From Acinetobacter baylyi DSM 14961 = CIP 107474 (GTDB lineage: Bacteria > Pseudomonadota > Gammaproteobacteria > Pseudomonadales > Moraxellaceae): 64,000 nucleotides of DNA. Position numbers and translations under genes: made by a program. The notes beneath the pieces were generated by a model. It was not told the DNA's origin. It did no database searches and was given only the letters and a program-made list of their open reading frames with translations. Numbering within the stretch: the stretch's first letter is position 1; the number at the start of each line of letters is the position of its first letter. The DNA lies in NCBI RefSeq assembly GCF_000368685.1, contig NZ_KB849625.1, positions 310,001-374,000 of the forward strand, given 5' to 3'. This document shows, in pieces, positions 23,737 through 29,620 of the stretch.

Positions 23737-25215
23737 ATGACCGATTTACACCGCTTATCTGTTCGTGAGCTCGCCGAGGGTCTAGGCCAAGCTCAATTTT
23801 CTTCCCGCGAACTCACGCAACATTATCTGAACCGCATCGATAAAATCGACGCTCAGGTAAAAAGTTATGTCACTGTGACCCACGAACAGGCACTGGCACA
23901 GGCCGATGCTGCCGATGCATTGCGTCAGGCTGGCAATGCTGGATTCCTCACTGGCGTTCCATTGGCACATAAAGATATCTTTTGTACCAAAGGCATTAAA
24001 ACCACTGCTGGTTCTAAAATGCTCGACAACTTTATCTCGCCTTACAATGCAACTGTAGTTGAAAAAGCCAATGCAGCAGGTTTAGTGACCTTGGGCAAAC
24101 TCAATATGGATGAGTTTGCCATGGGCTCGACCTCGGAAAGCTCGTATTTTGGTGCAACGTGTAACCCATGGGCACTCGACCGTGTACCAGGCGGTTCATC
24201 GGGTGGTTCTGCTGCTGCTGTAGCAGCAGATCTTGCTCCGTTTGCCACAGGGACAGACACGGGCGGCTCTATTCGTCAGCCGGCGTCGTTTTGTGGTTTA
24301 ACAGGTTTAAAGCCAACCTACGGCCGTGTATCACGCTTTGGTATGATCGCCTATGCATCATCGCTGGATCAGGGCGGCCCAATGGCACGCTCTGCCGAAG
24401 ATTGCGCTTACCTGATGAATGTCATGGCAGGTCATGATGCCAAAGATTCAACGTCTGTCAAAAAAGACGTCGATGACTATGTAGCGAACTTAAATGCAAC
24501 AGCACTAAAAGGCCTGCGTATTGGTATTCCAAAGCAATACTTCAATGTGGCAGGCTTAGATGCCGAGGTGAAAGCGCGCGTAGAAGAATCTCTAAAAAAA
24601 CTTGAAGAGATGGGCGCGGTACTGGTCGAGATTGATCTCAGTATGACCGAAAGCTATGTACCCACTTATTACCTGATTGCACCTGCTGAAGCCTCATCGA
24701 ATCTATCGCGTTATGACGGTGTGCGTTATGGCTATCGCTGTGAAAATCCAGTCGATTTGATGGATTTATACAAGCGTTCACGCTCAGAAGGCTTTGGTGC
24801 AGAAGTACAACGCCGTATCTTGATTGGTACTTATGCCCTTTCGGCTGGCTATTATGATGCCTATTATGTGAAAGCTCAGAAAGTGCGCCGCTTAATTCAG
24901 CAAGATTTCTTAAAAGCATTTGAAAATGTAGATGTAATTGCTGCACCGTCTGCACCAACTACAGCTTATAAAATTGGTGCCGATCTCACACCAGTTGAAA
25001 TGTATTTGGGCGATATTTATACCCTTGCAGTGAACCTTGCAGGCTTACCAGCCATCAATGCACCTGTGGGCCTCGACAGCAATAATTTGCCTGTCGGTTT
25101 GCAACTGATTGGTAATTACTGGTCTGAGTCGCAATTGCTTTCGATTGTGCATCAGTACCAACAAGACACCACCTTCCACACACAACGTGCGGCAATTGCT
25201 GAGGAGAATGCCTAA
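23737..25215 (+). CDS. gatA: Glutamyl/aspartyl-tRNA amidotransferase subunit A
   Basis: Amidase subunit that releases ammonia from glutamine or asparagine. The 492-residue protein contains the amidase signature with the Ser-cisSer-Lys triad: lysine in [12 protein letters not shown] near 78 and the serines in [13 protein letters not shown] and [14 protein letters not shown] near 150-185. The stop codon shares one base with the ATG of gatB (25215), indicating translational coupling. Confidence 0.97.
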
Positions 25216-26702
25216 TGAATAATCCTTCAAAAGCAGCTCAAAAAAAGCCAAAGTCGAACCTGATTGATGGTTGGGAAGTGGTGATCGGGATTGAGATTCA
25301 TACCCAGCTTGCAACCCAATCTAAAATTTTCTCGGGTTCTTCTACCGAATTTGGACAAGATCCGAATACGCAAGCAAGCTTGGTCGATTTGGCCATGCCA
25401 GGTGTATTGCCAGTATTAAATGAAGAAGTGGTGAATCTTGCGATCCGCTTTGGCTTGGGCATCGATGCATATATCGATCAGGCTTCTGTATTTGCACGTA
25501 AAAACTATTTCTACCCAGATTCGCCAAAAGGCTATCAGATCAGCCAGATGGACAATCCGATTGTGGGCTTGGGTCATATCGACATCCAGCTTGAAGATGG
25601 CACCGTCAAACGCATCGGTGTAACGCGTGCGCATTTGGAAGAAGATGCAGGTAAATCGATTCATGACCAGTTTGAAGGTCAGTCGGGTATCGATTTAAAC
25701 CGCGCCGGTACGCCATTGCTCGAAATTGTATCTGAACCAGATATGCGTTCGGTCGAAGAAGCGGTTGCGTATATCAAATCGATACATACGCTCGTGCGCT
25801 GGTTAGGGATTTCTGACGGTAACATGGCAGAAGGCTCATTCCGTGCCGACTGTAACGTGTCATTGCGCCGTCCGGGCGATGCATTTGGTACCCGCTGTGA
25901 GCTGAAAAACCTTAACTCGTTCCGTTTTATCGAGCAAGCGATCAATGTCGAAATTGAGCGCCAGATGGAAATTTTGGAATGGGGCGGTACGATTGATCAG
26001 GAAACCCGTTTGTTTGATCCAAACAAAATGGAAACCCGCTCAATGCGTTCTAAAGAAGAAGCGAACGACTATCGCTACTTCCCAGATCCAGACTTGTTGC
26101 CTGTGATCATTGCAGATGAGCAAATTAAAGCAATTAAAGCGACTATGCCGGAGCTACCTGCTGCTCGCCGTGAACGATTTATCGCTGAATTTGCAATTAC
26201 CGAATACGATGCGCATGTACTTACCTTGTCTCGTGAAATGGCCGATTTTTATGAAGCGGTCGTGGCAGCGGCTGGCGGTGCAGCACACGGTAAAATTGCT
26301 GCAAACTGGGTGATGGGTGAATTCTCTGGGGCCTTAAATAAAGCTGGCCTAGAGCTTGCAGATTCGCCTGTGTCTGCTGAGCAATTGGGTGGCATGATTG
26401 CACGTATTGTGGATAACACCATCAGCGGTAAAATTGCAAAACAAGTCTTTGGCTTTATGTGGGATGAAGGCAAATCTGCCGATACCATTATTCAGGAAAA
26501 AAGTTTAAAGCAAGAAACTGACACAGGTGCGATTGAAGCCATTATTAAAGACGTACTTGCAGCCAATGAAAAAATGGTTGAGGAGTATAAGTCTGGTAAA
26601 GAGAAAGCTTTTAATGGCCTTGTAGGTCAAGTGATGAAAGCTTCAAAAGGCAAAGCCAACCCTGCTCAAGTGAATGAATTGATGAAGAAATTGATTGGTT
26701 AA
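25215..26702 (+). CDS. gatB: Aspartyl/glutamyl-tRNA amidotransferase subunit B
   Basis: Subunit that binds the mischarged tRNA and transfers ammonia to it. The 495-residue protein has the GatB signature ([12 protein letters not shown] near 15-28, [13 protein letters not shown] near 97 and the [17 protein letters not shown]-like segment) and a YqeY-like C-terminal tail domain ending in [17 protein letters not shown] rho-independent terminator follows directly, closing the gatCAB operon. Confidence 0.97.
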
Positions 26703-26720
26703 GCTAATCTAGTTTCAAAG

Positions 26721-26747
26721 AAAACCCGCTTTAGAGCGGGTTTTCTT
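26721..26747 (+). terminator. gatCAB terminator
   Basis: Stem AAAACCCGCT/AGCGGGTTTT with a 4-base loop, followed by TTCTTATT, starts 18 bases after the gatB stop. Confidence 0.93.
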
Positions 26748-26756
26748 ATTCAGAGG

Positions 26757-26966
26757 TTAATAAAAACTCTCTTCTTCGACTAAAACATTTTTAACATAAA
26801 GTCGTGGCGTATCAACCTCATAAATACCTTTTAGAAGTTGGGCTGCTTGTGCTTGGTCAAATGATTTTTTAACAGATAAACCAAAGCTTAAAGATGAATA
26901 AAATTGTGCTGCTTCATCACTAATAGTATTGCCCATAGCAATTTTACAATCGACATGCTTAATAAC
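26757..26966 (-). pseudogene. C-terminal remnant of a CHAT/caspase-like protease protein
   Basis: The minus strand is open from 26966 to the stop at 26757-26759, about 69 codons, with an internal ATG at 26934-26936 that would give 59 residues. The translation begins VDCKIAMGNTISDEAA, then FYSSLSFGLSVKKSFDQA and ends with DTPRLYVKNV. I recognise this as the last 60-70 residues of CHAT or caspase-like (peptidase C14-related) domains: the VDCxIGM strand, an AAxxFYxxLxxGxSVxxAF helix and a TPxLYV terminus. The catalytic His and Cys, which lie further upstream in such domains, are absent. A stop codon precedes the segment and a lipoprotein gene begins soon after. It is best read as a decayed fragment, although a short expressed peptide cannot be excluded. 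Confidence 0.6.
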
Positions 26967-27014
26967 TTATTTTAAAAAAAGAGTATTATCTTCTTTTAAT
27001 AAATATATCCAAAC

Positions 27015-27599
27015 TTAAAGTCCTTGTAATTGAGCCTCACACCCAGCCCATTCATTAATATTACGCAGATATTTCAATGGTTTTAGCTCAACTCTTTCAC
27101 CTGTAGATAAAACTTCTTGAACTTCTAAAGAACATTCATTACCACCTTTATGATCAAGCAGCTCATAATTTTTGTTTGATCCAAACTTATAAACTGCCTC
27201 TACACTACAACCACGTAACTCTGTACCAGTGTGATAACTTTTATATGCACTTAAAGCAATAAAACGTTCTGCTGGTATTTTAAATTCTGCAAATTGAATC
27301 TTTTTAGGTGGAAAAGGCATATTTAACAACTTAGATTTATACCGAACCTCTCCACCTAATACGCCGATACTTTCAACTTCTGGTGACATTAAAAACTTGG
27401 GTTGCATTGAGGTTATACATCCATTCGGATATAGTCTTACACTAAAATTTCGGCCTTGCTCTATACGAATATTACTAGCTAAACTATCAACTGAATCTTG
27501 ATATAATTTATGGCCAATTAATTTTTTTGATTGGTTCACAACGCTAGCCGTACAACCAGCAAGCATTGTAATTACAAAAGTTAGCAATATTTTTTTCAT
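27015..27599 (-). CDS. Putative lipoprotein of unknown function
   Basis: A 194-residue protein with a lipoprotein signal: MKKILLTFVITMLAGC, lipobox LAGC and lipidated cysteine at 16. The mature part has a mixed alpha/beta composition and two further cysteine pairs (C in NGCIT, RGCSV, NECSL and AGCEA), which may form disulfides in the periplasm. I recognise no domain. Base composition is more A/T rich than the gatCAB genes, fitting an accessory region. It has its own upstream region and no obvious operon partner. Confidence 0.75.
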   Translation of the reverse strand: MKKILLTFVITMLAGCTASVVNQSKKLIGHKLYQDSVDSLASNIRIEQGRNFSVRLYPNGCITSMQPKFLMSPEVESIGVLGGEVRYKSKLLNMPFPPKKIQFAEFKIPAERFIALSAYKSYHTGTELRGCSVEAVYKFGSNKNYELLDHKGGNECSLEVQEVLSTGERVELKPLKYLRNINEWAGCEAQLQGL

Positions 27600-27712
27600 G
27601 CGTTATAAAAGAAAACTAAAATTAGTGAAAATTCTAACAAACAACATTACTTATACAAGGTATCTTAGCTGTTATTTTGATTGTTTGATAAAGGCCAGCA
27701 TCAAAAGAATCA

Positions 27713-28237
27713 TTACTGCCCTCCTAGCACACCCAACTTACCCAATACCCCCGGCGTCAAAAACGTCATCGCCACTTTGTTTAAATCAATATAACGTAGT
27801 GTTCCTTGTAACTGCTGTTTCACTGCCGGATCTTTTACAATCTCTTCACCTGCATTTTGTCCCAATTGCTGAAAACTTTGCCCCACTGCCTGCAAGCCTT
27901 CGGTTTGAATCACATTTTTAGTCTGTGCCGAACATTGATCGATAATAATGCGTTGCAAAACTTGTGCAAGCTTTTGGTCAAGCTGATCTTTTTGTTCAGC
28001 GCTCACATTACTAAATGCTTTTAAATCGGGATGCACAGACAACGCCGCATAAGTCCATTGCAACACCGTCGTTTTATCGGCTGCTGTGGTCGATTTCACC
28101 AAGCAATCACTCAACTGATCCACCGCAGGGCCAGCATTTGCCATTTGAGTTGCTCCAAACATGGCCGCTATAAGTGTAAAGGCACACGCAATGGTAGAAC
28201 GTTTCTGCCCCAATAATGAATCACGATGCTGCAACAT
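27713..28237 (-). CDS. Exported protein of unknown function
   Basis: A 174-residue protein with a signal peptide (hydrophobic AFTLIAAMFGATQMANA at about 19-35, cleavage after ANA). The mature part is helical, with two cysteines (DCLVKS and DQCSAQ), a Gln-rich central helix and a hydrophobic C-terminus ending in LGKLGVLGG. GGAG lies 8 bases before the ATG. The distribution of this type of protein looks Acinetobacter-like, but I cannot name a family or function. Confidence 0.75.
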   Translation of the reverse strand: MLQHRDSLLGQKRSTIACAFTLIAAMFGATQMANAGPAVDQLSDCLVKSTTAADKTTVLQWTYAALSVHPDLKAFSNVSAEQKDQLDQKLAQVLQRIIIDQCSAQTKNVIQTEGLQAVGQSFQQLGQNAGEEIVKDPAVKQQLQGTLRYIDLNKVAMTFLTPGVLGKLGVLGGQ

Positions 28238-28355
28238 AAGTTTTACTCCAATCTACAATTGCCTACTTTTAGCATATTTAGATTCATTCGATCTGTAACT
28301 TGGCTGTAAACAGTATTCATCCCGATCATCACTCCAACTTCAGAGCATAGTAGTA

Positions 28356-29414
28356 CTATAACGAAGCTGATGTTTCAGCGTTAAGACATTCTTCTGCATT
28401 GAAAACATTGGCTTGAATCTGGATCAGTTGACGTTTACCTTGCTGACCATTCATACGCCAATGGGCAATTTTAATATTATCAACCAGTGCAATATCTCCC
28501 TTTTCCCAGTTCAGTAAAAATGCATCTTTATATAAATTATTGAAAAAACTTGATTTATCTGAATCGGACCAGTTTAAATTTTCTCCATCAGAGGTACGCA
28601 TTTCCCATGAAAGATTCATACCATTTGCAGTGGCATCACCTACTATTTCTCCGCGCCCCTCGAATTGATGAATTGCTGCCTGATGTGCATAAGAATTCGT
28701 ATTTTTAGCAAATGCCCAGGGTTGTAAACAAGGTTTCTTAGTTTCTGGATGATAAATAACTAACGGGCTTTTTTCTAGAATCAGTTTTGCAGTTTTATCG
28801 GACTGCTGCTCCACTTGAAAAGGACTGTTCTTTAAAAGTAATTTATCTATTAGATTGATAGGCCGACTAGAAACATAATAAAAATAATTCCACGCAGTCT
28901 GATAATAATTTTGCGTGTCCCTATCAAAATTTTGCCAGATTTGCTGTAAATCGTTAAATCCTGTTTCTGCAAGATATTCCGATGGTTCCTGACAGTAAAG
29001 CGATAAGTAATGGCAACGAGTTGATTGAATTCCACCTTCAACATGAGGGCCTTGTACAGAATTGTCTACAGGACCAAGTTGTACTGTATTTTTACCCAGA
29101 TAACGTCGATAATCCCCTGCACCCAATAAATTTTCACTATACTTACGCATCAAGGAGGCTAACCATCCAGGTAAATTCGGATTGAATGCATTCCATGCTT
29201 TTAATTGTAATGATTGCTGAACTAATATTTCAAATTGTTGAATATTATGAATTTGAAATCCTCTAAAAACCAAAATTCCTGTCTGGTGTAGTTGATCAAA
29301 AATTTCCACGCGAAAAGACTCAAATAATGTTTTTAGATCAGAAAATTGGTTATTATCATTTTTAGCTTGATAAAGCTTAGCAAAAGAGCAAAGTGGCTCT
29401 AAAAGTAATTCCAT
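28356..29414 (-). CDS. TauD/TfdA-family Fe(II)/2-oxoglutarate-dependent dioxygenase
   Basis: Probable non-haem iron oxygenase that couples 2-oxoglutarate decarboxylation to hydroxylation of an unknown small molecule. The ATG at 29414 has GAGGA 5 bases upstream; the longer frame needs a TTG. In the 352-residue protein the facial triad can be placed: GPHVEGG supplies His124 and Glu126 (HxE in place of the commoner HxD), and DNIKIAHWR supplies the distal His near 318. A TauD-like arginine lies shortly after it. The 28356-29620 region has no partner pathway genes, so the substrate cannot be inferred. The size and HxE form are closer to SyrP/clavaminate-synthase-like members than to taurine dioxygenase itself. 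Confidence 0.8.
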   Translation of the reverse strand: MELLLEPLCSFAKLYQAKNDNNQFSDLKTLFESFRVEIFDQLHQTGILVFRGFQIHNIQQFEILVQQSLQLKAWNAFNPNLPGWLASLMRKYSENLLGAGDYRRYLGKNTVQLGPVDNSVQGPHVEGGIQSTRCHYLSLYCQEPSEYLAETGFNDLQQIWQNFDRDTQNYYQTAWNYFYYVSSRPINLIDKLLLKNSPFQVEQQSDKTAKLILEKSPLVIYHPETKKPCLQPWAFAKNTNSYAHQAAIHQFEGRGEIVGDATANGMNLSWEMRTSDGENLNWSDSDKSSFFNNLYKDAFLLNWEKGDIALVDNIKIAHWRMNGQQGKRQLIQIQANVFNAEECLNAETSASL

Positions 29415-29620
29415 GTCATTCCTCAAATAAAAAAAATTTATTCCAGTCTCAATCAGCTAAACAGCTCATCATGGTCCATTGATTACAAATATCAATAATT
29501 GGTCTAAAACTATAGTCTTGTTCAAATATATTTTGGTTTAGATGATAAACGGTTGATCCTATTGATGCTCTCAGTACCAGATTGATAAAATTGTGCTGGG
29601 TTTATGAGTAGATATAACGC

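Follow-up and report, generated by a model that had tools for sequence, protein, structure and literature searches.

The window, by which we mean the whole 64,000-nucleotide stretch of Acinetobacter baylyi DSM 14961 DNA analyzed here, carries gatB on the plus strand at 25215–26702 (an open reading frame named by the first-pass annotation and matched at the DNA level in 172 of the 175 genomes of the genus), followed by the gatB terminator hairpin at about 26718–26747. A conserved minus-strand gene of 174 aa, whose product looks exported as read from its sequence, lies at 27713–28237 and recurs in 84 of 90 compared loci. These two genes form the fixed flanks of a variable slot (26703–27712), which in the window holds the truncated C-terminal end of a coiled-coil/CHAT protease gene (the stump; 26757–26966, minus strand; identified from the open reading frame, tblastn and a profile search) and a possible lipoprotein gene of 194 aa (27015–27599, minus strand; LPAM_1 E = 0.03, below the Pfam cut-off). 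Relatives of the lipoprotein-like gene were found in 9 of 174 congeners, five of them with at least 59% identity. The "unknown lipoproteins" placed here by the first-pass annotation come down to this one possible lipoprotein, the other being the exported-looking 174-aa protein. The annotation had also claimed about 69 codons of a characteristic last CHAT segment, without giving a strand; such a frame is indeed present, in minus orientation (codons 26760–26966, stop codon 26757–26759) and contains the quoted motifs. An in-frame TAA (26967–26969) stands directly upstream, approximately where the CHAT homology ends, and the G+C content of the stump locus is low (0.32 vs 0.41 for the window).

To identify the stump, we assembled a CHAT-family profile from the full-length family that matches it. 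Among 1028 stop-to-stop frames of at least 30 aa in the window, the stump was the sole match (E = 7.2e-22), and 0 of 1000 shuffled versions of its 68-residue frame were reported at E up to 10. In a tblastn search against plasmids, the stump matched 17 records with a best E of 9e-14; the annotation reads "CHAT domain-containing protein" in 11 and "hypothetical protein" in 6. Identity was 62% to the intact protein of a congener and 52% to the product of a CHAT gene on a Shewanella plasmid. The stump alone drew no match from Pfam (E up to 1, and likewise up to 0.1), PADLOC (E up to 1) or NCBIfam (E up to 0.001). The Pfam comparison proposed in the first-pass annotation accordingly gave a divided answer, failing for the fragment itself and succeeding for its full-length relatives (PF12770, E = 5e-7 for a CHAT-annotated plasmid gene and the intact congener) and by way of the family-specific profile. 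A PF12770 search of the stump's own genome returned no match, while 1 of 14 control genomes searched in the same way did. As judged by sequence, the stump is a descendant of a CHAT gene. Twelve Staphylococcus plasmid records matched the stump, and one Staphylococcus plasmid carries a short annotated CHAT gene of 159 aa (L074:3040–3519). On a Shewanella decolorationis plasmid (L071:3068–5092), the CHAT gene immediately follows one whose product is labeled "abortive infection family protein".

Aligned to the intact protein, the stump corresponds to residues 266/267 to approximately 332–339, about the last fifth of the full-length gene, and comprises just the final strand-helix-helix-strand part of the CHAT domain. 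It starts about 10 residues past the catalytic cysteine, such that the positions of the catalytic histidine and cysteine are both absent. The first-pass reading of a CHAT remnant devoid of its catalytic part is borne out by this start beyond Cys257 together with the profile match (E of 7e-22). Relative to intact proteins, the stump has a further internal deletion of five residues (approximately 26905–26915), two of which fall in columns that show no variation among all 81 aligned relatives, and its C-terminal end is divergent and shorter. From residue 264 onward, 19 columns are at least 90% conserved in the family; the stump retains 14, has gaps in three (one being the very end) and a non-consensus residue in two, one of which has the same state in the intact congener. 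Retention of these 14 columns implies that the decay is recent or that some role is possible. A 59-aa open reading frame within the stump begins at the family's conserved internal methionine (Met276), and for this reason its start is probably fortuitous.

A search of 175 genus genomes with the stump returned its own genome and one congener (G094), whose relative is an intact gene of 343 aa. A conserved stand-alone mini-gene, the outcome against which the first-pass annotation had set its proposal, was rejected, since the 174 congeners yielded this single full-length relative and no truncated copy. The intact gene lies far from the gatB of its genome, in opposite orientation to its neighbors, inside a region that appears prophage-like from gene roles read off the sequence. 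By megablast against phages, this prophage-like stretch matched solely over a short part of the portal gene, in two Pseudomonas phage records. The intact protein had no tblastn match among deposited phage records and was assigned no family by NCBIfam, and five viral contigs carry a family member, three of them with 96–97% identity to the congener's protein. Beyond the genus, a scan of named-species genomes identified 96 stretches encoding relatives, of which the best 80 were retained; judged by record titles, these 80 come from Pseudomonadota, Bacillota, Bacteroidota, Spirochaetota and others, and 74 have open reading frames of at least 325 aa. The parent family protein, of approximately 345 aa, consists of an N-terminal coiled coil and a CHAT protease domain and is found in many phyla, on plasmids and in prophages. 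Clustering of open reading frames of at least 80 aa within about 3.5 kb of the 80 family loci, some of them on short contigs, gave no conserved partner, with no neighbor cluster present at more than 5 loci. At three loci (L225, L229 and L234), a small gene resembling one for a membrane protein (164–194 aa) lies divergently beside the CHAT gene, and its product is possibly a protease target or a pore partner. At four others (L214, L218, L223 and L226), the coiled coil is encoded in one open reading frame and the CHAT part in its neighbor, which may reflect split genes, frameshifts or sequencing errors. Neither the coiled-coil/CHAT family nor the gatB slot is named in the abstracts returned by our literature search.

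His214 and Cys257 occupy columns that do not vary in any of the 81 aligned family members, and we infer that the intact relatives are proteases using this His-Cys dyad. For one member from a viral contig, AlphaFold2 (AF2; 40 sequences, mean pLDDT 87.3, pTM 0.56) predicts two long helices (residues 3–48 and 52–140) followed by the CHAT domain. Among solved structures, the filament-forming SAVED-CHAT protein 8tl0 is nearest in fold, with a Foldseek E of 4.6e-15 and, in the structural superposition, Z = 24.9 at an rmsd of 2.5 for 197 residues (next match, Z = 15.0). The match concerns the CHAT part, and residues 1–139 hardly entered into the fold search. A profile search of PDB sequences likewise returned SAVED-CHAT (E = 4.2e-23).

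The N-terminal coiled coil bears a likeness to that of a defence candidate. Positions 3–137 of the 282-position PADLOC model PDC-S66, a phage defence candidate composed of a coiled coil and a TIR domain and described as uncharacterised in PMC12482510, matched an N-terminal stretch of approximately 135 residues in both intact CHAT proteins tested (E = 1.8e-10 and 4.1e-14). A genus protein of 282 aa (L018) matched PDC-S66 over its full length (E = 5e-99), and Pfam finds TIR in it. Ten genus loci matched earlier by the Shewanella CHAT N-terminus, which come from nine genomes and include several near-identical copies, were all recovered by a profile of 75 CHAT N-termini (E = 1.3e-22 to 3.2e-21, with E-values set to ten sequences). 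Heptad-block shuffles were reported in 2 of 10 cases, the better at 1.4e-6 and hence about 15 orders weaker than the true matches, and none of the reversed sequences was reported against this profile. TIR was sought by profile in two of the ten loci, L018, as above, and L019, which gave a partial NCBIfam match below the cut-off; another of the ten, L026, is a 111-aa open reading frame devoid of TIR. With a mixed N-termini profile, 3 of 293 genomes of the order matched at E = 1e-8 or better, at four places, which as read by eye comprise a TIR protein, a CHAT protein, a protein of 509 aa that has ATPase motifs and is encoded near this CHAT gene, and a 133-aa open reading frame. Resemblance between coiled coils can be misleading: the two intact CHAT proteins (P0001 and P0003) also draw weak matches from other coiled-coil PADLOC models, P0001 a weak pneumococcal-surface-protein model from NCBIfam, and the family profile also draws coiled-coil chains in PDB; the coiled-coil evidence is therefore softer than that for CHAT. 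The N-terminal part common to the coiled-coil/CHAT proteins and the TIR candidate suggests one sensor with swappable killers. The 509-aa protein (L243:1492–3021), which by eye combines ATPase-like motifs with an N-terminal coiled coil of similar kind, is also encoded near the CHAT gene of another locus (L229:2617–4146), there with an adjacent HNH-like open reading frame, such that the two occurrences may represent one event.

We compared the slot across 90 loci, namely the window and the corresponding downstream stretch from 89 of 174 relatives (L058–L063, L066–L068 and L075–L154), chosen mainly for the most similar gatB and sufficient contig, with the addition of G094 and three carriers of the lipoprotein gene. 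Both flanks were present in the same orientation in 84, the remaining 6 not showing this arrangement within the stretch taken. The distance between the flanks ranged from 119 to 8614 nt (median 2188 nt), the shortest (119 nt, L080) representing an empty form of the slot. The 83 slots of over 300 nt had a mean G+C content of 0.330 vs 0.391 downstream; open reading frames of at least 80 aa numbered 195 in 83 slots totaling 192 kb and fell into 101 clusters, 73 of them singletons, while two clusters recurred at 19 and 17 loci. At a length of at least 100 aa, there were 98 clusters in the slots vs 60 in 499 kb beyond the 174-aa gene. With its fixed flanks, varied cargo and empty form, the region behind gatB qualifies as a genuine variable slot. 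Such cargo may enter by natural transformation with short homology. In L061, L062 and L063, the lipoprotein gene occupies the same end as in the window, and other cargo separates it from gatB, in the position where the window has just the stump. CHAT proteins searched against the 89 other slot loci gave no match at E = 0.01, and the expectation that related strains may carry the intact system here was not borne out in the 89 other species taken, none of which has CHAT at the site; the one intact copy seen in the genus lies in the prophage-like region of G094, away from the slot.

The cargo of the slot is enriched in defence genes. At a threshold of 1e-5, the 98 slot representatives matched 171 PADLOC models (one protein can match many), while the 60 control representatives matched 5 models, with one member each. 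When 40 slot representatives were scanned singly at the same threshold (20 selected mainly for adjoining gatB, and a further 20 drawn from among the 98), 12 matched and 28 did not. The matched models comprised PD-T7-3, PD-T7-4, PDC-S15, PDC-S33, PDC-M11A, HEC-05, HEC-06/Orf5, bSEFIR, NsnA, AbiLi/HEC-01A, DpdB and, weakly, LmuA. Pfam named four of the first ten PADLOC-negative representatives (HATPase, HNH, M48 peptidase and SIR2-like), and the slots also hold mobile-element and ordinary genes, including a transposase, DJ-1/PfpI and a transporter. The proposal that a defence-type gene was present at this site and lost is thus supported as to the site, which is variable and often defence-type, and lacks a counterpart in the form of a CHAT gene there in the 89 others. 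Chromosomal and phage-borne defence hotspots (PMC9122126 and PMC12629846) share the fixed flanks and the turnover of varied, often defence-type cargo, compared with which the gatB slot is short (median about 2.2 kb) and situated at the gatB terminator.

The terminator hairpin acts as a seam for the ends of slot genes. Of the 84 slots, 43 contain a gene on the minus strand whose end lies 30–54 nt past the last sense codon of gatB, within or against the terminator; by the same measure, the stop codon of the stump lies at 58 nt. Eleven of the 43 seam-ending genes, from at least ten different clusters, encode the C-terminal residues NPL, an ending shared by unrelated convergent genes because their stop codon falls inside the gatB hairpin.

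The stump is very likely dead DNA left from a coiled-coil/CHAT gene that occupied the gatB slot. As the best overall explanation, we consider it likely that a CHAT gene in the slot was deleted down to a dead stump and that its parent was a one-gene abortive-infection effector. The gene would have been convergent with gatB and would have ended against the terminator like much other cargo. A deletion, presumably in place, which makes for the simplest story, would have removed everything from the gene start to just past the codon for the catalytic cysteine, and a small internal deletion would have taken five further residues, leaving the dead 3′ stump. The intact protein was probably a single-gene abortive-infection effector, in which the long N-terminal coiled coil may keep the protein oligomeric or inactive and may respond to infection, whereupon the CHAT domain would cut cell or phage proteins by means of its His-Cys dyad. 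Sensing of infection by the intact protein is our supposition, and an antiviral role is suggested by the fold, the mobile context, the common coiled coil and the company in the slot.

Several other explanations were weighed against this one. The stump may have arrived already truncated at the edge of a recombining fragment, for instance together with the lipoprotein gene, in which case no working CHAT protein was ever encoded here. The absence of CHAT from the 89 other slot loci and the turnover of slots by unrelated pieces would fit such an arrival; its stop codon, however, lies where other convergent slot genes end, as would be expected for the 3′ end of a once-whole gene, and we regard pre-truncated arrival as rather unlikely. 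It is far less probable still that the frame, of 59 or 69 codons, works as a small gene in its own right, such as one for a regulator or decoy derived from the CHAT C-terminus. Although the frame is open and retains 14 of its 19 well-conserved columns, it occurs in one genome with no truncated copy in the 174 others of the genus, has lost two columns that are otherwise invariant, and owes its ATG to the internal methionine of the family. A likeness to CHAT arising by chance would accord with the silence of Pfam, PADLOC and NCBIfam on the fragment, and is refuted by the family-profile search with its shuffles; in light of that E-value among the 1028 frames, the shuffles and the tblastn match, its probability is negligible.

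A further alternative concerns the parent, as the intact coiled-coil/CHAT protein may be a protease for housekeeping or stress, or may serve a prophage in some other way. Its role in defence is putative, and some family loci adjoin no recognised defence gene, the neighbors having been clustered rather than annotated. Against such a function stand the scatter of the family over many phyla, its carriage by viruses and plasmids, the coiled coil in common with a defence candidate and the fold nearest to SAVED-CHAT, and we deem it rather unlikely. Returning to the loss of an abortive-infection gene as the preferred explanation, we also entertain, somewhat short of an even chance, the broader idea that the stump belongs to a modular family of stand-alone defence proteins, in which one coiled-coil sensor is combined with swapped effectors (a TIR domain, a CHAT protease or, for a single gene pair, a protein resembling ATPases), for which the gatB slot would be a genus-wide hotspot, with gain and loss occurring against the terminator seam.

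Among known systems, SAVED-CHAT (PDB 8tl0; PADLOC SAVED_CHAT) is the nearest in solved structure to the CHAT domain of the intact relatives, which carry a long N-terminal coiled coil in place of SAVED and align to the PADLOC model over profile positions 302–454 of 498, i.e., its CHAT part; the stump, in contrast, has no catalytic part. With PDC-S66, the intact CHAT proteins have the N-terminal approximately 135 residues in common, whereas their effector half is CHAT rather than TIR (P0001 and P0003), and the coiled coil is absent from the stump. The Shewanella and Halobacillus plasmid CHAT genes (CP080634.1, NZ_CP076856.1 and NC_017669.1) have the length and architecture of the intact congener and are among the best matches to the stump, but are full length. 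From the stump, then, comes a testable lead in the form of a widespread coiled-coil/CHAT family with the N-terminus of a TIR-based candidate, and the compact slot behind gatB, with its many proteins of defence-type and unnamed families, offers a convenient hunting ground for new systems across the genus.

A second variable gap lies beyond the 174-aa gene (28310–29608). In the window, it contains a TauD-like dioxygenase gene (28356–29426), and in the nearest relative (L058) the flanks of this gap are joined directly.
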